Below are positions 16,868-40,440 of a stretch of DNA of 64,000 nucleotides, one piece after another. The first letter of the stretch is position 1; every line of letters starts with the position of its first letter. The notes under the pieces were generated by a model, which had not been told where the DNA came from, searched no databases, and saw only the letters and a list, made by a program, of their open reading frames with translations. The translations under genes and the position numbers were made by a program. Origin of the DNA: Candidatus Brocadia pituitae. GTDB lineage: Bacteria > Planctomycetota > Brocadiia > Brocadiales > Brocadiaceae. The DNA lies in NCBI GenBank assembly GCA_017347445.1, contig AP021856.1, positions 3,790,613-3,854,612 on the forward strand. Direction: 5' to 3'.

Positions 16868-18157
16868 TTATAAGGTTTGTCGTTTCTTTTTGTCTTTCCG
16901 TAAGGAATCGATTATATGACCCTTTATGGGAAAAGAAAAAGTCTTGATCGTCTTACCCTCGTGTTTTACCACCAGTTTCTTGTGTTGCGTAAAAATGGTT
17001 GCAACAAGGTACTGCCCTTCAAGCTTCTTCCTGATAAAGTATTGATTACCGTTAATTTCAACTTTACCATGCGTGCCTACCTTCCTTATAAAGGAGATAT
17101 TCCCTTTTGCAACGGGAATATCCAAACAACCCCGTGCATCCAGGTAAGGTTCGAGATTGAACCCTATGGGTATCTGTTTCAGAGACTCCCACAAAGAGTC
17201 TCTCAGTACTCCAGGAAACCGCGTACCATGGTCTTTTTGAGTAAGTCCTCGGTGCGGTTTTTTATACTGATAGTACCTCAGAAACCGCTCATTAACTTTC
17301 TTCAATCGTGCAAGGGAGAGACACCTATGTCTTCTCAGTACCCTTTCCTGCCAAAGATCGTTAAAACTCTCAACCGTGGCATTTCTTCCCGGCTCGCCTT
17401 GTGGAATAAATACCACGTGAATACCCAAAAGCAGATGAAGGCGAATAACCTGAGAAATACTGTACGGATATCTCCCACCTCCCGTGGCAGCCATTTCATT
17501 GTCCATCTGCGATGCCTCTGGGATTCCAAGGTTTCTCCATGCCTCAAGCAGATGTTTGCACAGAGAAATCGACTGTTTGTCGGTAAACTGACTCGCCCAG
17601 ACAGTACGTCCTGCAACATCAACCGTATGAAACGTATAAAACCGGATAACCTTGTCAGTACCCCTGAGATATCTTGGCCCCACAAGATCAGTCTGGTGGA
17701 GTTCTCCCATCTTTTCAGCTTTAAAGTAAGGGTAGGGGTGTTTTTTCCCCTTTTCCTTACGTCCTTGTTTATTGCCTGTTTTCCCATATCGAGAAAGTAT
17801 TCGTGCAATAGTAGGTATCGATGGAATATCCCGTATCTTCTTCTGTTCGAGTTCCCAGTGGATAACTTCCGCTCCTATCCCAGAAAAAGCAGAACGGCGT
17901 GTCTTGTGAGTCTCCAGTTCTTCCCGAAGAGAAAGTATTTTCTTTATCAATCGCCCAGATATTTTTCTCCAAATTCGTCTCGGTGCACGACTGCGATCTT
18001 TGAGACCTTTATTCCCGTATTCTTTGTATCTTCTAAGCCATTTATGCAGCCATCCACGACTCCTTTGTACCAACTGAAGTATCTTATTGAATCCGTGCCC
18101 CTTTTTATACAACTGAATCGCTTGGTGCCGTTTCTCATATTCTCTATGATTCTCCAT
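16868..18157 (-). CDS. IS481-like DDE transposase, copy 1
   Basis: A 429-residue integrase-fold transposase. An N-terminal helix-turn-helix (IQLYKKGHGFNKILQLVQRS) is followed by the catalytic core with Asp in HQTDLVGPRY (157), Asp in QMDNEM (219) and Glu in NATVESFNDLW (263). I take ATG 18157 because GGAGGAGG lies immediately upstream; the in-frame TTG 15 bases earlier would include that ribosome site. It encodes the same protein as the other two copies. It differs from copy 3 by one silent T/C. Confidence 0.9.
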   Translation of the reverse strand: MENHREYEKRHQAIQLYKKGHGFNKILQLVQRSRGWLHKWLRRYKEYGNKGLKDRSRAPRRIWRKISGRLIKKILSLREELETHKTRRSAFSGIGAEVIHWELEQKKIRDIPSIPTIARILSRYGKTGNKQGRKEKGKKHPYPYFKAEKMGELHQTDLVGPRYLRGTDKVIRFYTFHTVDVAGRTVWASQFTDKQSISLCKHLLEAWRNLGIPEASQMDNEMAATGGGRYPYSISQVIRLHLLLGIHVVFIPQGEPGRNATVESFNDLWQERVLRRHRCLSLARLKKVNERFLRYYQYKKPHRGLTQKDHGTRFPGVLRDSLWESLKQIPIGFNLEPYLDARGCLDIPVAKGNISFIRKVGTHGKVEINGNQYFIRKKLEGQYLVATIFTQHKKLVVKHEGKTIKTFSFPIKGHIIDSLRKDKKKRQTL

Positions 18158-19024
18158 CGTCTCCTCCTCCAAAAATGTTTTTGGAGAAAGTTTAGACGAT
18201 CTTCTACAAAGTTCACGATGTTATGATATTTTTTAAGTTCACGATGTTATGATATAAACCCCCTACCCCTGTCCCATCCGCCTCTCCCAAGGGAAGTTCC
18301 TTCTCGTCTAGCGGAAAAGCTATTTCTGATGCCGTCTTTTGCACGGATCTCCATATTGTCATCTTGTCTACTGTCCACCCAAACATCGACACGATCTTCT
18401 TCGCTACCCGGTAGGTTGTTAACGACCCTACCAGCCCAAGCTTCCGGTACGTCTCTCGTGGTATTCGCTTCATCGGCTCTATCCCAAGAAGCTTACGCGT
18501 TATATACCTCTTATGGCCACACCTCTTGCACTGTACCTGCAACTGCTCCAGGCTCACCCACTGAAATACCGTCAGTATCTTCGTCTCCTTCCCATGCCTT
18601 GTCTTCCAAATAAACTCCTTGTCATTCCCACATTCCTCGCAGCAGAACGGCTTCCGGGAATGCACCATGACACTTTCACCAAAACCAACAAGCACCTTCT
18701 GAATAAAATCCCTCAATAGTTCTGGCAGTAACTTGCAAAATGCCTTTAGTATCCCCTCTAAACTGCCGTCCGTTAATTCAACTCTAAATTGACAACCAAA
18801 TTCTATTGTGATACTATCTGTGCATGGGGTTGCTCCCATATCGCCCTCCTTTTCTTTATGGTTTAGTTTTTCTCCAAAACTATTTCTACCATAATTGGAG
18901 GGCTTTTTCTTTAGCCAAGTCTCTCTTTTTCTACTCTACCAATGGTTTGATCACGTATTCCTTTTCAATGGTTGCCTGCTTACTAATTCTTATAAAGGAT
19001 TCCACAAGAACAATTTCATCAAAG

Positions 19025-25272: not shown

Positions 25273-26858
25273 GGGTTTATATCATAACATCGTGAACTTT
25301 GTAGAAGATCGTCTAAACTTTCTCCAAAAACATTTTTGGAGGAGGAGACGATGGAGAATCATAGAGAATATGAGAAACGGCACCAAGCGATTCAGTTGTA
25401 TAAAAAGGGGCACGGATTCAATAAGATACTTCAGTTGGTACAAAGGAGTCGTGGATGGCTGCATAAATGGCTTAGAAGATACAAAGAATACGGGAATAAA
25501 GGTCTCAAAGATCGCAGTCGTGCACCGAGACGAATTTGGAGAAAAATATCTGGGCGATTGATAAAGAAAATACTTTCTCTTCGGGAAGAACTGGAGACTC
25601 ACAAGACACGCCGTTCTGCTTTTTCTGGGATAGGAGCGGAAGTTATCCACTGGGAACTCGAACAGAAGAAGATACGGGATATTCCATCGATACCTACTAT
25701 TGCACGAATACTTTCTCGATATGGGAAAACAGGCAATAAACAAGGACGTAAGGAAAAGGGGAAAAAACACCCCTACCCTTACTTTAAAGCTGAAAAGATG
25801 GGAGAACTCCACCAGACTGATCTTGTGGGGCCAAGATATCTCAGGGGTACTGACAAGGTTATCCGGTTTTATACGTTTCATACGGTTGATGTTGCAGGAC
25901 GTACTGTCTGGGCGAGTCAGTTTACCGACAAACAGTCGATTTCTCTGTGCAAACATCTGCTTGAGGCATGGAGAAACCTTGGAATCCCAGAGGCATCGCA
26001 GATGGACAATGAAATGGCTGCCACGGGAGGTGGGAGATATCCGTACAGTATTTCTCAGGTTATTCGCCTTCATCTGCTTTTGGGTATTCACGTGGTATTT
26101 ATTCCACAAGGCGAGCCGGGAAGAAATGCCACGGTTGAGAGTTTTAACGATCTTTGGCAGGAAAGGGTACTGAGAAGACATAGGTGTCTCTCCCTTGCAC
26201 GATTGAAGAAAGTCAATGAGCGGTTTCTGAGGTACTATCAGTATAAAAAACCGCACCGAGGACTTACTCAAAAAGACCATGGTACGCGGTTTCCTGGAGT
26301 ACTGAGAGACTCTTTGTGGGAGTCTCTGAAACAGATACCCATAGGGTTCAATCTCGAACCTTACCTGGATGCACGGGGTTGTTTGGATATTCCCGTTGCA
26401 AAAGGGAATATCTCCTTTATAAGGAAGGTAGGCACGCATGGTAAAGTTGAAATTAACGGTAATCAATACTTTATCAGGAAGAAGCTTGAAGGGCAGTACC
26501 TTGTTGCAACCATTTTTACGCAACACAAGAAACTGGTGGTAAAACACGAGGGTAAGACGATCAAGACTTTTTCTTTTCCCATAAAGGGTCATATAATCGA
26601 TTCCTTACGGAAAGACAAAAAGAAACGACAAACCTTATAAAACCTATTTCTCAGGGGACACAACAGATTATTGTAGAGAGAGTACGAGTTTGTTTTCGTT
26701 ACACATTGTTTAATTTTTTTGGCGGGCAGGCATGGTTAACTCCAGTCGTCCTACGGACTCCTTCCGTTAACCATGCCTGCCCTTTATCTGATTATGTTCA
26801 CGATGTTATGATATTTCTGAGCATTAAAAATCAGTTCACGATGTTATGATAGCAACCA
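25273..26858 (+). mobile_element. IS481-like element, copy 2 (1586 bp)
   Basis: Opposite orientation to copies 1 and 3. The direct repeat CCTTATG flanks it (25266-25272 and 26859-26865). The end at 25273 carries only one copy of the 18-bp terminal sequence, while copies 1 and 3 carry two, which explains the exact 26-bp length difference. It lies within HsdS-derived remnant sequence. Confidence 0.9.
25351..26640 (+). CDS. IS481-like DDE transposase, copy 2
   Basis: Identical in protein sequence to copies 1 and 3 (429 residues, D157-D219-E263). ATG 25351 follows GGAGGAGGAGACG. The frame is intact. The complementary strand also carries a 436-codon open frame in each copy, which I treat as a shadow. 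Confidence 0.9.
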   Translation: MENHREYEKRHQAIQLYKKGHGFNKILQLVQRSRGWLHKWLRRYKEYGNKGLKDRSRAPRRIWRKISGRLIKKILSLREELETHKTRRSAFSGIGAEVIHWELEQKKIRDIPSIPTIARILSRYGKTGNKQGRKEKGKKHPYPYFKAEKMGELHQTDLVGPRYLRGTDKVIRFYTFHTVDVAGRTVWASQFTDKQSISLCKHLLEAWRNLGIPEASQMDNEMAATGGGRYPYSISQVIRLHLLLGIHVVFIPQGEPGRNATVESFNDLWQERVLRRHRCLSLARLKKVNERFLRYYQYKKPHRGLTQKDHGTRFPGVLRDSLWESLKQIPIGFNLEPYLDARGCLDIPVAKGNISFIRKVGTHGKVEINGNQYFIRKKLEGQYLVATIFTQHKKLVVKHEGKTIKTFSFPIKGHIIDSLRKDKKKRQTL

Positions 26859-27196: not shown

Positions 27197-29623
27197 TTAT
27201 TTTTTCCAGCTAGATTTAATTTTGCCGCAAGAACATTTTACTGTATTTTCAACAGAGTCATAGTGCTTTTTGGACATAAGATTGTTACACTGATCACATC
27301 TGAAAAGCCCTTCCAACTCCAAAACGTCACCGTAAAACATTTTCAGATCGTCAATGTTTTCAGTAAATGTACTATCATGAGACGTCCTGTTGCCGAGAAA
27401 CATTGAGGCATTAAGCCTTCCAAAGACAGCCTGATCTTTTAACACACATTTTCTGTCTTTAAGCTTGCTCTTTAATTCTGACAGCAATTCATTTGACATT
27501 CTATTTTCATTTTGTTCATTAAAACGAAACTCTACCTTCACTTTCAGTTCATGACATATATCCTTTAGTATATGTTCAAGGTATTTTCGAATCATATTTC
27601 CTAATTCCGACGGATCTAAATTTTTCATCTTAGCTTCAATTCTTGCTTTAAGATCCATTAAGGGTTCTTCAATGCTTGCACCGCTGTCGTAATCCCAGCA
27701 CATCATCTTAATCAGCCAGTTTTTCCCTTTAACTATATTCGAGACAATCTCGAACCAGTCTTTTTCGTGAGTAAAAAGGAATATCTGGTAGTCGTTGAAT
27801 TTTTCTACCAAAAGCCTTGCAAAGCGAGCACGATGATTTGTATCAAAGCTGGATATTACATCATCGAGGACAATAAATTTATTGAGCTTATTAAAGGCTT
27901 TTACAGACGCTAAGAACAAGCATATCCCAAGACAATTCAAATGGGATTCACTGAGATACTTATGGGGCGGCGATTCCGGTTTGCCGTGAAATTTAAATTG
28001 CAGGGTAATTCCTACAAACTCTTCATCCTCGTCCAGCGGAATAAGTTCGATTTCGCTTACATTTTCAGAGGCATTCATAAATAGATAGAGGTCGTTGATA
28101 TCCTTTGATATAGATTCTAAAAAAGAGCAAAGCCCTTCTCTTTGCCTTCTCACAAACTCATTATAAATAAGCTCCATAGATTGTTGCTGTTGTGTAAGAA
28201 TTTTTAAAGCCTTTTGATAAGATTTAATCTCACTGTACGACTGCCTGACAGATATTATCTTGCTATAAACCGTGAATATGATGTCGTCTTTCTTTCCTGT
28301 AATTATTTTTCCTTTTTTTGAGGTAAGAGCAGAAATTGAGTTTTGAAGAGCGGTTATATCTAAACTAATAAAATCCTCTGGCTTATTGATTAGTTCAACT
28401 TCTGAAAGAGATGCCTTTTTGATTTTTTCTAAAGCTTTTAAAATTGTCCCTTTTATCTGTTCAATTTCTCTCCTTAAGGCAGAATTTTCCTCTAAAAGTA
28501 AACTTTTCTCTTTTAAGATATTTTCTATCTCTGTTAAGCCTCCTTGAATAAGTCGTTGTATTACATTTTTTTCCTCTTCTGCTGCATCTTTTTCCTTTTT
28601 AAAGATGGATAATTCCTCAATCCTCTTTCTTAACTCATCAATTAATTCATCTCTGCTTTTATCCTGTAAACATAGCGGGCACTTATCATCTTCGAATAAC
28701 CTTTTATCGAGAATCGAAAGTCCCTGTGACAATAATGGTTCAAGACTTATTTTTTTGAACTTTTCTTGATCTTCTGCAATCTGCTGACACTTTTCGTAGA
28801 ATGCTTTATACGATGTGCATATACTGTTGAAAGAAACCTTAAAGCTACTTAAATTCTCAATAACTTTTTCATAGGATAGTTGCAGTGCAATCGCTTCTTT
28901 ATCCTCTGGTTTCTTGAGAAGCCCTAAAATAGTATCTATGCTTGAATTGTCCTTAACTTCAATAGGGAGATTCAGAGGTATGACTAATTCTCTTATAGCA
29001 CCTAGATATTGTTCATCATCCGTAATATTTTGACCGATTTGCTCTATTATATGGGCTTGCTTGGCATTTATATGATAGTCAAAATTTTTCAGCTTGAGTT
29101 CTTTCTTTAGATCATTGACAGCCTTTTTTAGAACACCTTTTATCTTTGAAACCTCTGAAAAACCTATTATTTGTGAAATTTCCTCAAGCTTCTCCGCCTT
29201 AGTAGATAAAATAAACCTCAATAGATCCTTGTATCTGAGAATAAGATTTTCTTTTAAAGACATGTTTAGATAATCATTAATATTTTGTGAAACGTTTGAA
29301 TACTCACTGGTTAATTTTGATTTTTTATAAAATAATCTCTTTCTGGAATCACATTTTGAATCAGAGTAGTTTAATTCAACGTAAGCATCCTCATTATCCG
29401 ATAGGAAAATGTTTCTTAAAGCAGAAACTCCTTTAGTTCCTATTTCTTCTGATGAAAGATGCTCTATTTTGTCGTAATAGAACCATTCAAAGGCATCGGC
29501 GATAGAACTCTTTCCGCTGCCATTATCCCCATAAATAAGGATTGACTTGGATAAATCAAGATCAATACAAATGTCTTTTCTGATTCCTCTAAATCCGTTT
29601 ATTTCAAGGCTTTTAAGTTTCAT
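27197..29623 (-). CDS. Rad50-like zinc-hook ATPase, candidate RloC-type anticodon nuclease
   Basis: 808 residues. ABC-ATPase parts: Walker A GDNGSGKSS (32-40), signature-like LSESH (557-561), Walker B FIVLDDV (583-589), H-loop His619. Two long coiled coils flank a zinc hook CPLC (315-318). The C-terminal domain has Arg679-x3-Glu683 (IRKYLE) and NRTSH (His749), the order of residues described for PrrC/RloC tRNA nucleases, then a zinc ribbon (Cys776/779 and 797/799). RloC is known near type I restriction genes and has this size and hook position. A simple SbcC/RecF-type repair ATPase is the alternative. The start overlaps the upstream small gene by 11 bp. Confidence 0.6.
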   Translation of the reverse strand: MKLKSLEINGFRGIRKDICIDLDLSKSILIYGDNGSGKSSIADAFEWFYYDKIEHLSSEEIGTKGVSALRNIFLSDNEDAYVELNYSDSKCDSRKRLFYKKSKLTSEYSNVSQNINDYLNMSLKENLILRYKDLLRFILSTKAEKLEEISQIIGFSEVSKIKGVLKKAVNDLKKELKLKNFDYHINAKQAHIIEQIGQNITDDEQYLGAIRELVIPLNLPIEVKDNSSIDTILGLLKKPEDKEAIALQLSYEKVIENLSSFKVSFNSICTSYKAFYEKCQQIAEDQEKFKKISLEPLLSQGLSILDKRLFEDDKCPLCLQDKSRDELIDELRKRIEELSIFKKEKDAAEEEKNVIQRLIQGGLTEIENILKEKSLLLEENSALRREIEQIKGTILKALEKIKKASLSEVELINKPEDFISLDITALQNSISALTSKKGKIITGKKDDIIFTVYSKIISVRQSYSEIKSYQKALKILTQQQQSMELIYNEFVRRQREGLCSFLESISKDINDLYLFMNASENVSEIELIPLDEDEEFVGITLQFKFHGKPESPPHKYLSESHLNCLGICLFLASVKAFNKLNKFIVLDDVISSFDTNHRARFARLLVEKFNDYQIFLFTHEKDWFEIVSNIVKGKNWLIKMMCWDYDSGASIEEPLMDLKARIEAKMKNLDPSELGNMIRKYLEHILKDICHELKVKVEFRFNEQNENRMSNELLSELKSKLKDRKCVLKDQAVFGRLNASMFLGNRTSHDSTFTENIDDLKMFYGDVLELEGLFRCDQCNNLMSKKHYDSVENTVKCSCGKIKSSWKK

Positions 29624-29801
29624 ATTCTTTCTTTTCCCTTATTGTGCTCAAATCATTTGATAGATTTGTATTTGTCAGCTTGCCTTCCTGATATAACCTC
29701 AAAACAGTTTGGGCAACATTTTTATCCACACCCTCGATATTTCCTATTTGAGAGAAGAATTCATCAAGTATTTCCTGACCACTCTTGATTTGTTCCACCA
29801 T
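29613..29801 (-). CDS. Small protein coupled to the zinc-hook ATPase
   Basis: 62 residues, MVEQIKSGQEILDEFFSQIG then GVDKNVAQTVLRLYQEGKLT. Soluble and helical; no family recognised. It sits 3 bp after the GIY-YIG gene and overlaps the ATPase start by 11 bp, so production is probably coupled. It could regulate the ATPase. Confidence 0.6.
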   Translation of the reverse strand: MVEQIKSGQEILDEFFSQIGNIEGVDKNVAQTVLRLYQEGKLTNTNLSNDLSTIREKKEYET

Positions 29802-29804
29802 ATT

Positions 29805-30266
29805 CTATACTCCCTTTTCAAAGTACTTCCAGTTTATCTCAAGAACTATTGATACATCATGCTTTTTAATCTCAAAACCGCTTTTATTGTTGCAGATGGG
29901 ATAAACGCCGTATTTATCAAGAAAATCAAGGATAAAATAACTCTCTAAATCCTCTATACGGTGTTTCCATATCTGCTTCAGCATTTCAAAATTCAGATAG
30001 GTAAAATAAAGCCCTTCTGTATTCTTGTAATTAACAATGCCTTCGTTTCCAGATGTGCCCTCAAAATGGTCTGAAAGCCTCTTGCCGATGCTATTGGTCT
30101 TCTTCTCGCTCATACCAATATAAATTAGCCGTGACCTTTTGAAAGGATAGGGGATTTCTGTCTCTCTCAAAAAAATAAAATAAAGCCCACATATCCCCAT
30201 TAACGGCTTGATATTCCGCAATTCAAATTCCTGCGGTTTGTCAAAGTTGATCTTAAAAGTTTGCAT
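29805..30266 (-). CDS. GIY-YIG-like domain protein
   Basis: 153 residues. The N-terminal ICGLYFIF and RSRLIYIGMSEKK correspond to the GIY and YIG strands, followed by KRLSDHF with the expected basic residue. A glutamate in the RIEDLESYFILDF helix may be the metal ligand. Probably a nuclease domain without an attached binding domain. It is packed between KTSC and the small coupled gene in the defence island. Confidence 0.6.
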   Translation of the reverse strand: MQTFKINFDKPQEFELRNIKPLMGICGLYFIFLRETEIPYPFKRSRLIYIGMSEKKTNSIGKRLSDHFEGTSGNEGIVNYKNTEGLYFTYLNFEMLKQIWKHRIEDLESYFILDFLDKYGVYPICNNKSGFEIKKHDVSIVLEINWKYFEKGV

Positions 30267-30267
30267 G

Positions 30268-30483
30268 TTATCTAATTTTCTTGAAGCTATAACCGCCTTT
30301 CTTTATATAGGTATCAAAGTATTTGCCGTGAGAATCAGCACTCATCAGACCGTTATACACCGATTCCGGAATATTTAAGTATTGATAGATTCCTCCGTTA
30401 TGGAACTCAATTTCTAAAATCATGTTTTCTGGGTCATAACCTACTGATGCAAGATTGGATGATGAGACAGAAGTTCTATTCAT
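30268..30483 (-). CDS. KTSC-domain protein
   Basis: 71 residues covering one KTSC domain: RTSVSSSNLASVGYDPENMI, EFHNGGIYQYLNIPESVYNG and the GKYFDTYIKKGGY end. KTSC domains occur in phage and defence contexts and are thought to bind nucleic acid; the role is not settled. It starts 3 bp after the OLD gene stop. Confidence 0.75.
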   Translation of the reverse strand: MNRTSVSSSNLASVGYDPENMILEIEFHNGGIYQYLNIPESVYNGLMSADSHGKYFDTYIKKGGYSFKKIR

Positions 30484-32286
30484 TTTTTACCTCCTCAAAA
30501 GATTTGTTATTTGATTTATGAGATTCTCCAAAAAAGGAAGTTTTCCTCCATCAGAGTAAATCTTTTGGATAAATCTTTCAGAGCCATCCAGATTTTTCAA
30601 TACCTGCGATGGCCTATCATAGCCAAGCTCTTTGGCTATTTCTTCTCTAATAGAATTAAAACTATCCTCACCGATCTCTGATTTTAAATAGCTTTCCATT
30701 TCATCTTCAAAACATGCCCATGTTTCATGAACTTGTGTCGTTGGAAAGTCTTCTTCCTTGGCATCTGCCAATTTAAGGTATCTCTTGTTTCTCTCTACCG
30801 TCTCTTTCTCTTCCTTTTTCCCTTTATAACGCCGATCAGCATCAAAAATAAAATATGTTGGAATTTGAAATCCCCTAAAAATTACTACCGGTCGATCAAT
30901 GTTGTTTTTTCCTCTTGCTGGTATTATAGCTATACCTAATGAATGCCAATCTTTTTTCATAATATCTTGCATCGCCCATAAAACGCCCATATCGCCAAAC
31001 CCTTCAACAACCACAACAGCATCTGCAAAAAAACCCTCATTAGCAATAGTGTCCATTAAAGGCAATGCATGGGCACGAAACGATTCCTTAGTAAACAATT
31101 TTTCATCAAGAGTTGTAATCTGGGACAAAGCTTTTGCTGCTTGTTCAAGCGAATATTGTGTTGCAATACTATTAGCACATTCGCATTCTGGTGATTTTTG
31201 CTTGCGTATGAATCTAATTTGGTCAAATTTATATAGATCAACAAAGAATGGGGAATGAGTAGCGTAAAGAATTTGATTTCTGCCAGTATTTGTTTCCTTT
31301 ATGGATAACTCACTTAATAATTTTGAAAGATATCTACATCGCAAAGGATGCAAATAGAGTTCTGGTTCCTCAATTGCAAGTATTAAATCTGGCTCAATTA
31401 TGGTGATATTTTCTTCGGTGGAGCTTTCTGGTTGATGTGTTTCTGATGCATTCTTAATGGTGGTGGTTAATGCAAGCTGCTGAAGGAGTGTAATAATTAG
31501 CGCTCTTTGTAATCCATGTCCCTTTCTGCTTATATCTCCTTCGAAATCATCATCTATAAGTGTTGGAATAGCTTTGGGTAAAGACAATTCTGGTGGTTTA
31601 ATATCCTCCCAGTTGAGATTTAATTTTGCACCTGGCGAAAATTTACTAAGCGTCTCGCTGATAGATTCTCCAAGCTTAGGGAGTTCCTTCAAGTTTTCAG
31701 AATTATAAAGACTTCTCAATTCTGACTCAAATTTTTCTTTAAATGCTCGTATATCATCTCTGGCGTTAACTCGCCTATACACTATTATATCTAATAATTG
31801 ATATAGACTCGTGCCTTTTTTGTCAGAAATTTCATCTTCAACCTCTCGTACTGCTGGCACAAGAACAAATTTTGTATATTTATCAAGTTTGCCACCGCCG
31901 ATATTTTTAGGGCCAAAGAATTGCTCTTCTTTTTCTATGGGTTGTTTTAATTCAGAATGCTCCGCTTCATATGAGGTCATGATTTCTTCGACTTCATCCG
32001 CGCTTTTTACATTTCCTGATAGTCCAGAAAACTTACCTGAATCAATTAATTCTTTGAATTTTGCTGTTTTGTCTCTTTTAGCAGTAATCGCTCTGATTTC
32101 AGCAAATTCAGGTATTTGCATTGCTGCAGCGTAATATTTTTGACCAAACCTTCCATCAACCATGCTGATTTTTTTGGTCACAATTAATTTATTCTCTCTT
32201 AAGTACGTTTGGAACTCACTAATTTCAGCATCTTTTAACTGCGTATATGTAACCCTTAATATCATTTCTTGGTTTGTATCCTTATT

Positions 32287-33898
32287 TGGTTGCTATCATA
32301 ACATCGTGAACTGATTTTTAATGCTCAGAAATATCATAACATCGTGAACATAATCAGATAAAGGGCAGGCATGGTTAACGGAAGGAGTCCGTAGGACGAC
32401 TGGAGTTAACCATGCCTGCCCGCCAAAAAAATTAAACAATGTGTAACGAAAACAAACTCGTACTCTCTCTACAATAATCTGTTGTGTCCCCTGAGAAATA
32501 GGTTTTATAAGGTTTGTCGTTTCTTTTTGTCTTTCCGTAAGGAATCGATTATATGACCCTTTATGGGAAAAGAAAAAGTCTTGATCGTCTTACCCTCGTG
32601 TTTTACCACCAGTTTCTTGTGTTGCGTAAAAATGGTTGCAACAAGGTACTGCCCTTCAAGCTTCTTCCTGATAAAGTATTGATTACCGTTAATTTCAACT
32701 TTACCATGCGTGCCTACCTTCCTTATAAAGGAGATATTCCCTTTTGCAACGGGAATATCCAAACAACCCCGTGCATCCAGGTAAGGTTCGAGATTGAACC
32801 CTATGGGTATCTGTTTCAGAGACTCCCACAAAGAGTCTCTCAGTACTCCAGGAAACCGCGTACCATGGTCTTTTTGAGTAAGTCCTCGGTGCGGTTTTTT
32901 ATACTGATAGTACCTCAGAAACCGCTCATTGACTTTCTTCAATCGTGCAAGGGAGAGACACCTATGTCTTCTCAGTACCCTTTCCTGCCAAAGATCGTTA
33001 AAACTCTCAACCGTGGCATTTCTTCCCGGCTCGCCTTGTGGAATAAATACCACGTGAATACCCAAAAGCAGATGAAGGCGAATAACCTGAGAAATACTGT
33101 ACGGATATCTCCCACCTCCCGTGGCAGCCATTTCATTGTCCATCTGCGATGCCTCTGGGATTCCAAGGTTTCTCCATGCCTCAAGCAGATGTTTGCACAG
33201 AGAAATCGACTGTTTGTCGGTAAACTGACTCGCCCAGACAGTACGTCCTGCAACATCAACCGTATGAAACGTATAAAACCGGATAACCTTGTCAGTACCC
33301 CTGAGATATCTTGGCCCCACAAGATCAGTCTGGTGGAGTTCTCCCATCTTTTCAGCTTTAAAGTAAGGGTAGGGGTGTTTTTTCCCCTTTTCCTTACGTC
33401 CTTGTTTATTGCCTGTTTTCCCATATCGAGAAAGTATTCGTGCAATAGTAGGTATCGATGGAATATCCCGTATCTTCTTCTGTTCGAGTTCCCAGTGGAT
33501 AACTTCCGCTCCTATCCCAGAAAAAGCAGAACGGCGTGTCTTGTGAGTCTCCAGTTCTTCCCGAAGAGAAAGTATTTTCTTTATCAATCGCCCAGATATT
33601 TTTCTCCAAATTCGTCTCGGTGCACGACTGCGATCTTTGAGACCTTTATTCCCGTATTCTTTGTATCTTCTAAGCCATTTATGCAGCCATCCACGACTCC
33701 TTTGTACCAACTGAAGTATCTTATTGAATCCGTGCCCCTTTTTATACAACTGAATCGCTTGGTGCCGTTTCTCATATTCTCTATGATTCTCCATCGTCTC
33801 CTCCTCCAAAAATGTTTTTGGAGAAAGTTTAGACGATCTTCTACAAAGTTCACGATGTTATGATATTTTTTAAGTTCACGATGTTATGATATAAACCC
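32287..33898 (-). mobile_element. IS481-like element, copy 3 (1612 bp)
   Basis: Flanked by CTTATT (32281-32286 and 33899-33904). Same structure as copy 1, including two terminal 18-bp repeats at each end. It is inserted in codon 60 or so of the OLD-family gene, in the same orientation as the gene. Confidence 0.9.
32505..33794 (-). CDS. IS481-like DDE transposase, copy 3
   Basis: Same 429-residue protein as copies 1 and 2 with D157, D219, E263. ATG 33794 follows GGAGGAGG. Intact. Confidence 0.9.
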   Translation of the reverse strand: MENHREYEKRHQAIQLYKKGHGFNKILQLVQRSRGWLHKWLRRYKEYGNKGLKDRSRAPRRIWRKISGRLIKKILSLREELETHKTRRSAFSGIGAEVIHWELEQKKIRDIPSIPTIARILSRYGKTGNKQGRKEKGKKHPYPYFKAEKMGELHQTDLVGPRYLRGTDKVIRFYTFHTVDVAGRTVWASQFTDKQSISLCKHLLEAWRNLGIPEASQMDNEMAATGGGRYPYSISQVIRLHLLLGIHVVFIPQGEPGRNATVESFNDLWQERVLRRHRCLSLARLKKVNERFLRYYQYKKPHRGLTQKDHGTRFPGVLRDSLWESLKQIPIGFNLEPYLDARGCLDIPVAKGNISFIRKVGTHGKVEINGNQYFIRKKLEGQYLVATIFTQHKKLVVKHEGKTIKTFSFPIKGHIIDSLRKDKKKRQTL

Positions 33899-34090
33899 CT
33901 TATTAAATAAATCCTCAACAGTAATAGAAGCATTCACATCATAAAAAATATCAATAGCTTTAAGAAATGATGACTTCCCGCTGCCATTCCTGCCTATAAT
34001 GACCGTCAACTCATCACAGTTAAGCTGTGTCTTTTTGATACAGCGAAAATTTTCAATATATATTGATTCGATTATCATCTTAACTGTTAT

Positions 34091-36910
34091 TTACCCCTCT
34101 CCCCACACATCCGAAATAATCATTTCAATACGCCGTTCTGCCGCCTGCCGCAAGAGCCGCACACCTTCCAATGCCTCCATTTCTCTATCAAGTTTGGCAA
34201 CGATTTCTTGTTGGACAGGAAGAGGCGCGAGAGGATATGGAAATTCCATCAAGAACTTTTCTGGTACCCTTTTATGCCCTGATGCTCCAGTCATACTTTC
34301 TCTTGCCCGATCTCTAAAATATTTAGTTCTTAATAAATAAAAAATATACCTCGGAAGTACTTTGTTAGACTTTGCTCTAAGAACATGTAATTCAGTAGTA
34401 CCAAAACCAATTCCATTACATAAATTTTTAGCAATTACAATTTTTCCATTTTCCATACATGGAGTTATCTTAGCAAACAAAACGTCATTCTCTGCAAAAA
34501 AGGTGTATCCTTTTTTAACATCTTTTAATGGTTTTGTAACATAGTTTTTAATTTTACCAGAAATTTCGTCAATAGCATCCATTGGAATAAAACTAACTAA
34601 TGTGCCATCATCTAATTCAAGATAGTCTCGAACTGGATTAAGTTCTGCAAAATCACTTATATGCATTGTTTGAAAATCTTTAAAAATATCGAAAGTGACT
34701 TCCCAACTTTCCTCAATCCTCTTCGCAGCCTCTATGAGTGTCTTTTGACTTTCGATTTTTTCGACAATTTCGTTTTGAACTTCTAATGGCGGGAGGGGGA
34801 TTTTGATATTCAAAAAATCAGTAGACCGTATTGCTGCGTAACTGGTAGTTCCTCTCACATAAGTGCGAACCTGATCTTCAATAACTTTACTTGTGAGGAC
34901 AACGCTTAAATATGCAGGCAATAACTCGCTTTGATTAATAGAGTAAATATAGTAATGCGAACTGACTATTGCCCCGTCACATTCGGAGGGGATTATTCCG
35001 TAACCACCATTTTTAGCATCAATTTCAGCTACGAGTAGTTGGTTTGCCTTGACGATCTGCTGTTTCTTTGTCTTTATGTCCCGTCCAAAAATGGATTCTC
35101 TGAAAACAATCCCTTGTCCATGTAATTTGCAAGTGACAAGCTTATATTCTTGATCATCCTCTATTTCAACAAAGCCGTTCTGTAAGGTTAACAATCTACC
35201 AAGTTCTTGTTTTGGGTATTGATGATCGCTTTTTAATATGGTGTTAAGGGCATTTAGTAGTTCATTGCTTTTCAAAGTTTCTTCCGGCTGTTTATGCAGA
35301 TACTCCTTGGCAATATCCATCTGTAAGGCATTTTGCGGGTCAAATGAAGCAAGGATTTTCAGAGCGGTTTTGGGATCGGCGGTTTTGAGTTCCTGATATC
35401 TTTTCTCTATGCTTAAGCCTTGAGATTCTTCGCTTCGCTCAGAATGACAATGTGGGAGTTGCTCAGAATGCGCGGCTTGGTCGGAATGTGAGATTTGCTC
35501 AGGGTGTGGAATTTGCTTGGAATGAGAAATGGTGAAAGAATGACATACAGATTTCCATTCTTTTATCTGTTCTTCACTTAGATTACTGCGGTAGTTTTGC
35601 AGGTTGAAATGATACGAATTGGCCTTTTCGATGGCCTTGGCAATTTCGTTGTCAACCTGCGATTCTACCACATTATCAAACTGCCAGAGTTTTTCGTCAT
35701 ACATCGCCTTGCTCAATTTGCCTTTGGCAAGTTTTTCATCAAGACCGGCAAGGAGCCTTTCGCGTTTTGCCTTGTTTTTTTCTGTAAATCTTTCATTAAC
35801 TTCTTTTTTAATACGCTCCGCAAGGCGCGGATCAAGCGTTTCAATCCATGCTTTGGGAATACAAAAACTATGCCTTGTGTCTTTTGGTCTTTTACCCTGC
35901 TTAATCTCCTTGAAAATCTCCAAGAGTTGAGGAATCTGGCTCCCCTCAATCGGTTTGCGGTTCGTTCCCATCGAGAAGCCGTCGTTTTCTATTTTGTAAT
36001 ACCAGACAAATCTTGTCCCGGCAGGCTGTAAGCCGGGATCGGTAGATGAACCTTTTTCAAAATACAAGATTGAGGTCTTGGCGCCCTGGCCGCCCTTCGA
36101 CACAAACACACCTTGCGGAAGGCTGATGACAGCCCGCAAGTTCGCCTCGTTTAACAATAGTTTTCTCAGGGCGCAGGCGCTGTTCTGCCCCCATGTTAAA
36201 AACCCTTCTGACACAACCACAGCGCATCGTCCACCTTGCCTCAAGAGATCAAACATGAGTTTAACAAAGAGGATCGTGGTTTCAGATTCTTTGGAGTAAT
36301 CTTCCCATACATTTGGATACGCCGGCTGGTCGCGTTCCGCGCCAAAGGGGGGATTAGCAATTACTACGCTTTTACTACCGACATCGCTTGAGGGGTCATA
36401 CATTTTCAGGCTGTCGCCCTGGACGATATTGTGCGGATTGAGTCCGCGGATATACATATTCACCGCCGCCATCTTTCTGATACGGCCCTGATATTCAATA
36501 CCACCAATGCCCGCGCGGTAAAATTGATTTGCAATATGCTCAGGCGGGAATCGTCTTGTTTTTCTTGCCTTCTCAATAACGTATTCGTAGGCGTTAAAAA
36601 GAAATCCGGACGTGCCGCAGGCAGGGTCAAAGATAATATCGGTAAAATCGGGGTCAACCATCTCCACCATCATTTTGCGGATGTGGTCTGGTGTCCTATA
36701 CAGCCCTAAATCTTTTGTGCCCCCGGTTTCCGACAGCGCCGATTCGATAGCGTCGCCCAGGAGATCGGTTTTTAAAACCCATTGTTCGTCAATCTCGTTC
36801 ACCAGTCCGATAACTTCTGCAATCACGCCGCCTTTGACGTTGTTGGTAAAGTTTGAGTTGGCAAATACTTCCTCCATGAGGACAAGCTGATCCTGCATCT
36901 TGGTTGGCAT
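34091..36910 (-). CDS. hsdM: Type I restriction: HsdM methylase fused to HsdS specificity subunit
   Basis: 939 residues. The N6-adenine methylase has FDPACGTSGF (94-103, AdoMet motif I) and NPPFG (186-190, motif IV). A linker of about residues 425-560 leads to an HsdS region with two target-recognition domains, each followed by a conserved helix (PLPPLEVQNEIVEKIESQ and PLPVQQEIVAKLDREM). Fusion of M and S in one chain is uncommon. The methylase N-terminal helical domain is in another frame at 36922-37236. ATG 36910 lies inside the conserved methylase, so alone it would give an N-truncated enzyme. HsdR is upstream in the same operon. Confidence 0.85.
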   Translation of the reverse strand: MPTKMQDQLVLMEEVFANSNFTNNVKGGVIAEVIGLVNEIDEQWVLKTDLLGDAIESALSETGGTKDLGLYRTPDHIRKMMVEMVDPDFTDIIFDPACGTSGFLFNAYEYVIEKARKTRRFPPEHIANQFYRAGIGGIEYQGRIRKMAAVNMYIRGLNPHNIVQGDSLKMYDPSSDVGSKSVVIANPPFGAERDQPAYPNVWEDYSKESETTILFVKLMFDLLRQGGRCAVVVSEGFLTWGQNSACALRKLLLNEANLRAVISLPQGVFVSKGGQGAKTSILYFEKGSSTDPGLQPAGTRFVWYYKIENDGFSMGTNRKPIEGSQIPQLLEIFKEIKQGKRPKDTRHSFCIPKAWIETLDPRLAERIKKEVNERFTEKNKAKRERLLAGLDEKLAKGKLSKAMYDEKLWQFDNVVESQVDNEIAKAIEKANSYHFNLQNYRSNLSEEQIKEWKSVCHSFTISHSKQIPHPEQISHSDQAAHSEQLPHCHSERSEESQGLSIEKRYQELKTADPKTALKILASFDPQNALQMDIAKEYLHKQPEETLKSNELLNALNTILKSDHQYPKQELGRLLTLQNGFVEIEDDQEYKLVTCKLHGQGIVFRESIFGRDIKTKKQQIVKANQLLVAEIDAKNGGYGIIPSECDGAIVSSHYYIYSINQSELLPAYLSVVLTSKVIEDQVRTYVRGTTSYAAIRSTDFLNIKIPLPPLEVQNEIVEKIESQKTLIEAAKRIEESWEVTFDIFKDFQTMHISDFAELNPVRDYLELDDGTLVSFIPMDAIDEISGKIKNYVTKPLKDVKKGYTFFAENDVLFAKITPCMENGKIVIAKNLCNGIGFGTTELHVLRAKSNKVLPRYIFYLLRTKYFRDRARESMTGASGHKRVPEKFLMEFPYPLAPLPVQQEIVAKLDREMEALEGVRLLRQAAERRIEMIISDVWGEG
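35417..35542 (-). repeat. In-frame repeat insertion in the HsdMS linker
   Basis: Residues 457-498 read as degenerate short repeats (ISHSKQIPHPEQISHSDQ, then CHSERSEES). CHSERSEES is the translation of a widespread palindromic intergenic repeat (GATTCTTCGCTTCGCTCAGA on the plus strand). The insertion keeps the frame and lies between the methylase and specificity parts. Confidence 0.6.
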
Positions 36911-36921
36911 ATTGCCGCTTA

Positions 36922-37236
36922 TTACCTGTCTGGCTTTGGTAAGGATGGAGGCGTAAAACGGAAAATGTTTTTGTTAAGTTCTGATAATACCTGATCGCCC
37001 GTGAGAGAAAGGAGGTGAGAAAACAGGAGGCGATAGTTTTCACCTTCAAAAAGCCTTCGCAAGGGAGTAAATGTTTCATCCTGCTTGAGTTTGGCTTCAA
37101 AGATACGAAGCAGGAGAAGTTCAATAATATACTCCACGCGTTCAATCGGAGTGCCGGCAGGACGCAGCTTATTATGCAGGCGTTTGAGGATGTTATTTGT
37201 TTCGCTGTCTGCGTAATGAACGGTTGATCTTCCCAT
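36922..37236 (-). CDS. HsdM N-terminal domain, separated by a frameshift
   Basis: 104 residues: MGRSTVHYADSETNNILKRL and ERVEYIIELLLLRIFEAKLK are the HsdM N-terminal helical domain. After LNKN the frame goes off. One extra A in the run of five A (T run at 36968-36972) would continue as HFPFYASILTKARQVISGN straight into MPTKMQDQ of the methylase. So 34091-37236 is probably one gene of about 1050 codons in the parent or in the true sequence. Confidence 0.7.
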   Translation of the reverse strand: MGRSTVHYADSETNNILKRLHNKLRPAGTPIERVEYIIELLLLRIFEAKLKQDETFTPLRRLFEGENYRLLFSHLLSLTGDQVLSELNKNIFRFTPPSLPKPDR

Positions 37237-37239
37237 ATA

Positions 37240-38070
37240 TTATTCGCTATCCAATAGCCTTTTATTCTCAGGATTTTTCAGATAATTTTCTTTAGTTGAA
37301 ATGGATCTGCCAAGCTTTTTCTCAAGCTCTTTTTTTGCATTTCCAGCTATCTTTCCACCGACTTCTGCATCTTCCTTCAATTTTTTCATTCCTTTTGAAT
37401 CCTCGTTTCTATGAATTTCCGTTGTTGATCTTTCACCAAGCATAGTAAAAATAATCTCAAGATCGTTCATGTGATCTCGTAAATTTTCTCGTTTTAAGCT
37501 TTTGAATTTTTTATATTCGCCGGGCGTCATTCCAAAAGTCGCTTTAGAAATTTCCGCCGTTAATATTTCATAGTCCTTTTGCTCTTTCGCTCCTCGTTTT
37601 TGCCATTCATCAGTCAGTTCTTCCCGAATAGCAATACCCCGCATCCGTTTTTCAATCCAGTCATCGGAATAGCCTTTGAGTTTATAAAGCATTCTGGTTC
37701 TTTTTGTGGCGAGTTCCGGATTTTCTATTTCCTGCACTCTTTCATAACCAACTTTGGCGAGCCAGCGTTTGAATGGCTCGGCTTTTGGAGAGGGGATGGA
37801 CTGGATGATGCGGAAAATGCCCTCTGTGTTGGCGCAGTCAGTCTCGTATTTTTTGCCGTCGGCGGCAGCCAATTTCAGTCCGTGACAAAATGTCACGACC
37901 TCACTTTTTTCTTCCTTCAGCCTTTGTTTCAATTTTCTCCAATATGCTCCAGCATCAGTACTGTCCGTAAGAACCTCACATATATCCACAACCGAAAACC
38001 ACCACTCATTTTGATAAATAGTTTTCCTGATTTTTTTGCCTTTAAATAAGGCGATTTTTGTAGTTTCCAT
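37240..38070 (-). CDS. DinD/BRO-N family protein in the restriction operon
   Basis: 276 residues. The N-terminal BRO domain (KKIRKTIYQNEWWFSVVDIC, GIFRIIQSIPSPKAEPFKRW) is followed by a DinD-type C-terminal part (EILTAEISKATFGMTPGEYK, GGKIAGNAKKELEKKLGRSI). DinD-like proteins occur between hsd genes and are linked to DNA damage and RecA control in E. coli; the role here is inferred. It starts 3 bp after hsdR and ends 3 bp before the HsdM N-terminal piece. Confidence 0.75.
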   Translation of the reverse strand: METTKIALFKGKKIRKTIYQNEWWFSVVDICEVLTDSTDAGAYWRKLKQRLKEEKSEVVTFCHGLKLAAADGKKYETDCANTEGIFRIIQSIPSPKAEPFKRWLAKVGYERVQEIENPELATKRTRMLYKLKGYSDDWIEKRMRGIAIREELTDEWQKRGAKEQKDYEILTAEISKATFGMTPGEYKKFKSLKRENLRDHMNDLEIIFTMLGERSTTEIHRNEDSKGMKKLKEDAEVGGKIAGNAKKELEKKLGRSISTKENYLKNPENKRLLDSE

Positions 38071-38073
38071 TTT

Positions 38074-40440
38074 TTATACCCTAAAAGTAGTTTGTAGTTC
38101 CTCAAAAACTTGAGGCAATCGGTTATCAAACTTTTGATTGACTTCCTGGTAATCTGCCCCGATTATGCGCATATAAACGGGATTATCAAATATTTCCTGT
38201 GCAGTGATCCGCCTTTTTTGCGTAATGTTTTCTGCGAAAATGTCTTTTATATCCTGCAGAATATGTATTTGATCATCGTTAAAGCTGTACGTCTTCAAAT
38301 ACGAATCAAATCCGTGCTCGATCCTCTCTTTCGGAGTGGGGATTTTCTTAATCTTTAAGGCGTGAAGGAAGAAATCCCAAATTGAGCCCTGTTTAAAATC
38401 ATACATTTTCTGGAGTTGTCCTTCATCAAGATATACTTCAGGCTTTTTGGCCCAGTCCTTAATCGTTTCCACATCATCCGCGCTTGGTTCATACTCTTTG
38501 TCTCTCTCAGCCTTTTTCTTTATTTCAACAATCTCCGGCTTATCTGCCTTTTCCAGTTCTTCTTCAAACAAAGACCGGGCCTTTTCAATGGGGATATTGT
38601 CAATTACCTGGATTTTATCGCCGTGCAGATACACGCGCTGGATAAGATGGGCGGGGTCTGGATTATCAATGATAAACCATTCACCTTTTGGTTCATGTAC
38701 TCCACCATCCCCACCGCCTTTTCCATGAACGACCTTTATATTTGGTTTTGGCGTTCCCTTCCCATTATCCTCCATAGCGGCACATAGACCAACGAAATCA
38801 AGGACTTTAAAACTGAATTTGCCTGATTTTGGATCAAGACGGGTACCGCGGCCAAGCATTTGAACATATTTGCCAACGGATTTAGTCAGCGCGGCAAAGG
38901 AAATATACCGAACGCAGGGGATATCCACGCCAGTACCCATGATGTCAACCGAAACTGCTATAAAAGGCTTGTGATGAATGTCCTTAAACCACTTTTTGAA
39001 GGTTGCATTGAGGTCATTATTGTCGGAGATAATTGCCTCGGCATAGCGCGGGCTGGCTTCATCTTCAGGTGTGGCAAAAACCTTGTTGAGCGCTTTGGTG
39101 AGCATGATACAGTGAGCTTGGCTAACGCCAAACAAAAGAACCTTTTCGCCGTATTCGGTATGGGCTTTTATCTCTTCGGCGATGCGCAGGCATCTGTCTT
39201 CAGAAATGTATTTGCGCTCCAACTGTTCAATCATCAGCTTTTTCTGTTGATCCAGTTCAATTCTTCTTCTTTCGTCGGGATCAAGGACATAACTAAACTC
39301 AACGCCCTTTTCGCGTGCTAACTTGGTAAGTTCAGTTTCAATTGATAAAACCCGATAGGGCGCTAAAAATTCTTCGTCAATGCCGCGCGTCAGATCAAAC
39401 TGATAGTCCGGCTCGCCGGTTTCGCACCCAAAGAGCTTATAGGTATCCAAGATGGCAAGATCTTCTTCTGAAATGTCTTTTCCTTTTGCTGCGATTGCCT
39501 TCCGTGGAGTGGCGGTTAGCCCGATACGCGGGCAAAGAAAATGATCAAAGATGAGCTTTCTGTTGATATTGATAGACCTGTGGCATTCGTCCACAATGAC
39601 CAGGTCATAAAAAGAGCTTGGAATATTTTGGTAGATATTTTCCAGGGTGTCTATGACGACTATGTGAATTTGTGCATTCTTGTATTGGCGATAATTTGAC
39701 GAAGTGATTCGCACGGACGAAAACTCTTTGCTAATGAGAGAAAAACCATCATGAAGCGCCTGGTCTGCAAGCATAATGCGGTCAACCACGAAAAGCACTC
39801 GTCTAGCCATATTGTATTCAAGGATGGCTTTAACGAAGGCAACCATTGTCCGGGTTTTTCCAAGACCCGTGGCCATGTGCACCAGCATTTTTTGTTTGCC
39901 TTCCCTGAATTTACGCAAGAGTGTTTCAATGCACTCGACTTGATAGTATGTTTCTTTCCCGCAACTTGGATTAATACCTCCGGCAATTGTTTTGTCAATA
40001 CATACTTCCCGATTAAGGTTTATTTTTTTGGCTTGCTCGATTTTTAACCGCATTTCTTCAAGCGACATGAAACTATTGACTTGCCGAAACTCGCCTGCAT
40101 TAAGACCCTTCCATTCGGTATCATAAAACAGAGTTCTTTCGGGCGAACAGGCATATAAAAAGCGGGGTTTTAAAACTGCTGCGTAAAGCGTGCGGAGTTT
40201 GGTAAGCGCCTTTTTCTCGTCTTCAAACTTGTTCTCAAATACGGCCAGGATGTTGCTGTTGAGGTCCGTCAGGGTAATATCCGGCTTGATGCTCTTTTTA
40301 CCTTCAAATATTTTCTGTTGTTCCGGGGTTAAACTGTACTCTTGCTGATACAGCAAGGTATCTCCCGGCTTCCAATGGAGTTTTTCCAAATCTTTAATGA
40401 CTTTTAGATCGGTATCTGTTGCTTCGTTGATTCCTGGCAT
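38074..40440 (-). CDS. hsdR: Type I restriction endonuclease subunit R
   Basis: 788 residues, EcoEI-like. PD-(D/E)XK nuclease at the N-terminus with Asp54 (KPDITL) and Glu69-x-Lys71 (AVFENK). The motor has MATGLGKTRT (Walker A), IVDECHRSI (DECH box), GLTATPRKAI and the second lobe with VDIMGTGVDIPC and QMLGRGTRLD. The C-terminal helical region binds the methylase. The frame is intact. First gene of the operon; the 236 bp upstream contain a dispersed repeat and a palindrome but no clear promoter. Confidence 0.92.
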   Translation of the reverse strand: MPGINEATDTDLKVIKDLEKLHWKPGDTLLYQQEYSLTPEQQKIFEGKKSIKPDITLTDLNSNILAVFENKFEDEKKALTKLRTLYAAVLKPRFLYACSPERTLFYDTEWKGLNAGEFRQVNSFMSLEEMRLKIEQAKKINLNREVCIDKTIAGGINPSCGKETYYQVECIETLLRKFREGKQKMLVHMATGLGKTRTMVAFVKAILEYNMARRVLFVVDRIMLADQALHDGFSLISKEFSSVRITSSNYRQYKNAQIHIVVIDTLENIYQNIPSSFYDLVIVDECHRSININRKLIFDHFLCPRIGLTATPRKAIAAKGKDISEEDLAILDTYKLFGCETGEPDYQFDLTRGIDEEFLAPYRVLSIETELTKLAREKGVEFSYVLDPDERRRIELDQQKKLMIEQLERKYISEDRCLRIAEEIKAHTEYGEKVLLFGVSQAHCIMLTKALNKVFATPEDEASPRYAEAIISDNNDLNATFKKWFKDIHHKPFIAVSVDIMGTGVDIPCVRYISFAALTKSVGKYVQMLGRGTRLDPKSGKFSFKVLDFVGLCAAMEDNGKGTPKPNIKVVHGKGGGDGGVHEPKGEWFIIDNPDPAHLIQRVYLHGDKIQVIDNIPIEKARSLFEEELEKADKPEIVEIKKKAERDKEYEPSADDVETIKDWAKKPEVYLDEGQLQKMYDFKQGSIWDFFLHALKIKKIPTPKERIEHGFDSYLKTYSFNDDQIHILQDIKDIFAENITQKRRITAQEIFDNPVYMRIIGADYQEVNQKFDNRLPQVFEELQTTFRV

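Follow-up and report, generated by a model that had tools for sequence, protein, structure and literature searches.

RloC and PrrC are the described nucleases closest to the system considered here. In RloC, mutation showed the triad Arg692, Glu696, and His737 to be catalytic; the motif reads R-x3-E-x36-52-H, a Ser often precedes the His, and a cognate silencing partner has only been speculated about (PMC2610378). PrrC, found with EcoprrI, likewise joins an ATP-binding cassette (ABC) ATPase to a HEPN nuclease whose triad is Arg-Glu-His. We analyzed a 64,000-nucleotide stretch of the anammox planctomycete Candidatus Brocadia pituitae (the window, positions 3790613-3854612 of AP021856.1, the only contig of a 4.08-Mb genome), in which an 808-amino-acid (aa) ATPase-HEPN protein is encoded behind a gene for a 62-aa partner and, farther upstream, a gene for a GIY-YIG nuclease-like protein (Table 1). 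We consider it likely that these form a two- to three-gene abortive-infection cassette in which an SMC-like head senses invader DNA and releases a HEPN RNase. The evidence for this reading is a HEPN structural model, invariant residues matching the RloC triad, a long colinear alignment with RloC, a small partner gene that is always present and under purifying selection, defense genes as neighbors, and a patchy distribution.

Architecture and conserved residues of the ATPase-HEPN protein

The ATPase head matches SMC_N (E=1.7e-16 by hmmscan), and structure comparison matched it to Rad50 and SMC structures, including Rad50 entry 5da9 (Z of 20.2, root mean square deviation of 4.9, 342 residues aligned), in agreement with the Rad50-type ATPase recognized in the first-pass annotation. 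That annotation had also read an 808-residue open reading frame (ORF), a CPLC hook at 315-318, R679-x3-E683, an NRTSH motif ending in H749, a C-terminal ribbon, and a 62-residue gene overlapping the ATPase gene by 11 bp. All of these are found in the translation, and we add the minus strand and the adjacent GIY-YIG gene, which it had left unmentioned.

Modeled alone, the C-terminal 175 residues (predicted local distance difference test, 79; predicted template modeling score, 0.78) model as a HEPN fold. The first 19 ranks of the nearest solved structures are nearly all HEPN or HEPN-containing, among them sacsin, the SO_3166 and MntA-HepT toxins, and Csm6', and the best of them aligns with the predicted model at a Z of 7.9 and 3.6 Å over 118 residues. 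Unrelated folds appear from a Z of 4.4, save for the nucleotidyltransferase entries 4ebk and 4ebj. Structure prediction of this domain, proposed earlier as a check, thus led to HEPN domains rather than to a non-nuclease fold. The acidic HEPN motif of the upstream helix, Ex3[KR], is present as E683-x3-K687 in the 808-aa protein and its close clade; E683 is invariant across the family, and K687 is lost in some distant members.

Several observations weigh against a HEPN RNase. The HEPN Z values are middling (7-8), and helical bundles can match by chance at such values. Foldseek alone gave the C-terminal model no significant hit (E values of at least 0.2), with HEPN entries topmost. The profile match of the C terminus to RloC spans only 29 columns around R-x3-E. 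The arginine of Rx4-6H, given as the general HEPN motif in PMC3710099, is absent from the family, which keeps the N and the H; the RloC-type proteins that we examined likewise lack it. Finally, one relative has Tyr for the histidine, as described below. Taken alone, Z values of 7-8 would be weak, but the structure list is strongly consistent.

Sequence searches contributed little to the assignment: the HEPN domain found nothing meaningful in the PDB, and Pfam gave no consistent family for 31 family C termini. DUF4145 (PF13643) is a weak sequence match of the C-terminal domain (E=0.08). DUF4145-type HEPN domains have in common with it an R-bearing helix and a GN-x3-H motif, but the profile score of 23.2 compares with 23.1 for the best shuffle, and their fusion partners are others.

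Conservation was assessed in an alignment of 19 sequences at 18 to 79% identity, including Alphaproteobacteria, Bacteroidota, and a haloarchaeon. Most invariant columns are residues of Walker A, the signature, Walker B, the D-loop, and the H-loop, together with the CPxC of the hook; in the C-terminal region they are G648, R679, E683, N745, H749, C776, C779, and C797. The three residues whose conservation had been named as a check (R679, E683, and H749) are therefore invariant down to 18% identity, and at such divergence the invariance of these residues, of N745, of CPxC, and of three ribbon cysteines places the motifs beyond chance. One possibility is that the HEPN domain is a noncatalytic RNA- or protein-binding module and that the GIY-YIG protein or another neighbor is the effector. 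A relative outside the alignment, L037, has Tyr at the H749 position (NLLSYDN, L037:7992-10415), as this reading would allow, and its protein is possibly inactivated. We think a noncatalytic module unlikely, since the residues held invariant over deep divergence are exactly the catalytic ones of RloC, the GIY-YIG gene goes undetected beside the most divergent members, and no other neighbor is constant.

Under the RNase reading, the Rad50/SMC-like head and zinc-hooked coiled coil would probably sense an abnormal DNA structure or invader-caused damage, and an ATP-driven change would then free the C-terminal HEPN domain. This domain would cut cellular RNA through R679, E683, N745, and H749, the active-site arrangement of RloC, with tRNA as the likeliest target by analogy, and the infected cell would presumably die. 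Coupled in translation to the ATPase, the small protein encoded upstream probably serves as a structural or inhibitory subunit, holding the enzyme inactive until a trigger arrives. Nucleic acid is the probable ligand of the zinc ribbon, and the product of the GIY-YIG gene may be an optional second nuclease. One polypeptide is thus predicted to unite SMC-like DNA sensing with an RNA-cutting effector. In this picture the gene structure, the predicted fold, the conserved residues, the kinship with RloC, the constant partner, and the defense-island setting come from computation, and the trigger, the RNA target, the part played by the partner, and cell death are inferred.

Table 1. Features of the cassette, in window coordinates
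Feature	Position	Strand	Remarks
808-aa ATPase-HEPN protein (Rad50/SMC-type head, zinc-hook coiled coil, predicted HEPN domain, zinc ribbon)	27197..29623	minus	
Walker A, GDNGSGKS, residues 32-39	29507..29530	minus	G32, G37, and K38 invariant (19-sequence alignment)
Zinc hook CPLC, residues 315-318	28670..28681	minus	C315, P316, and C318 invariant in 19 relatives
HEPN domain (modeled), residues ~655-775	27299..27661	minus	Predicted model and nearest solved structures
R679-x3-E683 (R679-K-Y-L-E683), equivalent to RloC Arg692/Glu696	27575..27589	minus	Invariant; colinear with RloC R-x3-E
N745-R-T-S-H749, H749 equivalent to RloC His737	27377..27391	minus	Aligned to RloC N-x2-S-H by eye
C-terminal zinc ribbon C776-x2-C779...C797-x-C799	27227..27298	minus	C776, C779, and C797 invariant, C799 nearly so
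62-aa partner gene (62 codons)	29613..29801	minus	11-bp overlap with ATPase start
153-aa GIY-YIG nuclease-like gene	29805..30266	minus	Directly upstream; cassette member in close clade

Comparison with RloC and other ABC ATPase systems

In profile-profile comparison, the family matched seven RloC-type sequences with 99.2% probability and a score of 168 over 614 colinear columns, which take in the P-loop, hook, Walker B, H-loop, and R-x3-E. A comparably diverse RecN profile scored 50.5 over 48 columns; comparisons with SbcC and LmuB used one and two sequences, respectively, and are weak controls. The C terminus alone scored 27.7 against the RloC-type profile; 100 column shuffles reached 18.7 at most. 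In both groups, a coiled coil with a CxxC hook interrupts a Rad50-like ABC ATPase, Walker B is DD, and the C-terminal HEPN domain has R-x3-E and S-H; the proteins are also of similar size. R-x3-E and S-H are present in the RloC-type proteins that we fetched (PF13166), most of which have an N four residues before the H.

The profile search against AAA_13 (PF13166) suggested in the first-pass annotation returned 27.9 bits over part of the 808-aa protein, under the curated cutoff of 36, and hmmscan did not list it; 6 of the 19 family members match AAA_13 at E<=1 (best, 1.1e-12). PDC-S06, a PADLOC candidate, represents the RloC-type family (the RloC-type protein L050 scores 543 bits), and the 808-aa protein has weak matches to some of its models (39 bits). 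Beyond these, scans with Pfam, NCBIfam, and PADLOC gave only generic matches to the head. The present family also differs from RloC in its CPxC hook, its C-terminal zinc ribbon, its constant upstream partner of 58 to 83 aa, its optional GIY-YIG gene, and the spacing from E to H, which is x65 in the 808-aa protein and x60-83 across the family, compared to x36-52 in RloC (PMC2610378). Judged by the profile alignment, the weak PDC-S06 match, the AAA_13 score, and this spacing, the family is at the sequence level a distant sister of RloC and not a member of AAA_13 by the curated cutoff; the ribbon and partner gene also set it on a separate branch. The earlier description of the protein as RloC-like therefore holds for the head, the hook, the HEPN domain with its triad, and the full-length colinear profile, but not in the sense of a canonical RloC.

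Kinship with RloC makes cleavage of the tRNA anticodon plausible. In the narrower form of our reading, the protein would be a true anticodon nuclease, activated like RloC or PrrC and cutting the anticodon loop to stop translation. The triad and colinear architecture are as in RloC, and in the close clade Ser precedes the His, as is often the case in RloC. On the other hand, the E-to-H spacing lies outside the RloC range, the surroundings of the active site differ, and mRNA or other RNAs are the targets of other HEPN enzymes (PMC3710099). We hold this form only tentatively and would not expect it to be the right one.

The cassette lies downstream of type I restriction-modification (R-M) genes, as PrrC does with EcoprrI, and the first-pass annotation had described a candidate second-line suicide defense in a type I restriction operon region. 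PrrC is tied to a type I R-M enzyme, which silences it. It is half as large and has no hook insert (PMC2610378). The type I linkage proved local to the genome of the window, type I genes not being conserved neighbors among relatives, and a PrrC-like second line tied to a type I enzyme is therefore not indicated.

Lamassu (LmuB/LmuC/LmuA, ABC-3C, DdmABC) offers another comparison, with an SMC/Rad50-like sensor ATPase that is often zinc hooked, a small component, and a defense setting (PMC10586767). The cassette could be a Lamassu variant in which an LmuB-like SMC protein carries the effector as a fusion and is accompanied by a small middle component: in PADLOC, the highest-scoring models are those of LmuB (69 bits), and Lamassu shares the small middle component and includes many CPxC zinc-hook proteins (PMC10586767). 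Such an origin appears rather improbable to us. The effector of Lamassu is a separate LmuA, whereas here it is built in and no separate LmuA gene is found, only the small gene being constant and the GIY-YIG gene being confined to some members. LmuB is marked by a Glu-to-Gln change in Walker B, and the two LmuB proteins fetched have the pair DQ there, where the present family and RloC share DD. Profile similarity to LmuB is weak (a score of 33, from two sequences only, versus 197 for RloC).

ABC-HEPN proteins are already a known kind, and the present family is a variant within it. The groups APECO1_4465 and ERFG_01251 share the ABC ATPase, the C-terminal HEPN domain, and mobile or defense contexts; compared by description only, they come with no mention of a small partner or C-terminal zinc ribbon in the available part of the source (PMC3710099). 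No PADLOC 2023, NCBIfam 2026, or Pfam model covers the present family as a family, and we found no description of the cassette in the open-access literature; an earlier mention is possible, and novelty was judged against Pfam, NCBIfam, PADLOC, and open-access papers only. The trigger and silencing of RloC have remained unclear, and a sister family in which the small partner is constant allows the restraint and release of ABC-HEPN suicide nucleases to be tested directly.

Partner genes and distribution of the family

A small ORF lies directly upstream of the ATPase gene in all 32 nonredundant relatives with enough upstream sequence. These ORFs have 58 to 83 codons, and their ends fall from 7 bp ahead of the ATPase start to 35 bp within the ATPase gene; at random positions of these loci, a comparable small ORF turns up in about 11% of cases, and the 32 loci are mutually related and hence not independent. 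Against close relatives, the 62-aa ORF has a ratio of nonsynonymous to synonymous substitution (dN/dS) of 0.10 to 0.16, indicating that it is translated and under purifying selection, and this ratio together with its constant presence argues that the gene is real. Searches of Pfam and the PDB gave no convincing relative of the small partner. The suggestion that it is new therefore stands for the databases searched, but it is a family-wide partner rather than a planctomycete one. An assignment as GMT-wHTH (3 of 17 members, best E of 0.0016) was judged too weak.

The GIY-YIG gene matches Pfam GIY_YIG_2 weakly and below the cutoff (E of 0.005). The motifs, with the catalytic Arg and Glu, are present in the 153-aa protein, and G27-x-Y29, Y49-I50-G51, R63, E108, and N126 are kept in 10 relatives. 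The gene occurs in the close clade, with a divergent orientation in L040 and L009, and the survey of neighbors in 32 relatives did not detect it beside the most divergent members. The evidence seems to us evenly balanced as to whether the family is a separate pan-prokaryotic ABC-HEPN defense class, sister to RloC, with the small coupled protein as an obligatory control subunit of the RNase and the GIY-YIG protein as an add-on in one clade.

The family is found in 10 of 392 planctomycete genomes, and some occurrences are on plasmids and one is on a viral contig. Phage records gave no family match, and viral contigs gave that single relative. In the sister genomes G028 and G009 (loci L023 and L018), only the zinc-ribbon tail of the ATPase, the 3' end of the gene, survives at 66 to 81% identity, and these tails are the scar of cassette loss. 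Patchy occurrence and 3'-end remnants are how mobile defense genes behave. Relatives adjoin varied defense genes: a type III R-M pair of DNA methylase and ResIII helicase (L031), SIR2 with HerA (L035), an N6-methylase R-M gene with Shedu (L039), and KwaB (L032). In Halorhabdus tiamatea (L043:5805-8469), a BREX-5 island contains the small gene and the ATPase gene as an insertion between pglX and pglZ. The Rad50/SMC-like head would also suit a housekeeping DNA repair protein unconnected to defense, but with so patchy a distribution, plasmid and viral-contig occurrences, varied defense neighbors, and decayed remnants, we find such a role very hard to credit.

Other genes in the window

Just upstream of the GIY-YIG gene is a KTSC-domain gene (30268-30483, minus strand), and the relatives in L039 and L035 have similar KTSC genes nearby. 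Beyond it, an OLD-family ATPase-TOPRIM gene (30487-34078, minus strand) is apparently split by an insertion sequence copy into an AAA_15 N terminus (33884-34078) and a remainder with TOPRIM (30487-32265); an attempt to delimit the copy gave no clean boundary. An rve/helix-turn-helix transposase gene is present in three protein-identical copies within 17 kb (16871-18172, minus; 25336-26637, plus; 32508-33809, minus), one of them about 560 bp downstream of the cassette. The type I R-M locus (34091-40440, minus strand) is unusual in that HsdM and HsdS are fused in one 939-aa protein, and a Bro-N gene (PDC-S13 candidate, 396 bits) and a 104-aa HsdM_N-like ORF lie between the fusion and HsdR. The segment 18213-25138 holds two DUF1016/YhcG nuclease genes, one of which is broken into two ORFs, and a DUF3800 gene likewise divided between two ORFs; a DUF433-DUF5615 pair in this segment may form a toxin-antitoxin module.
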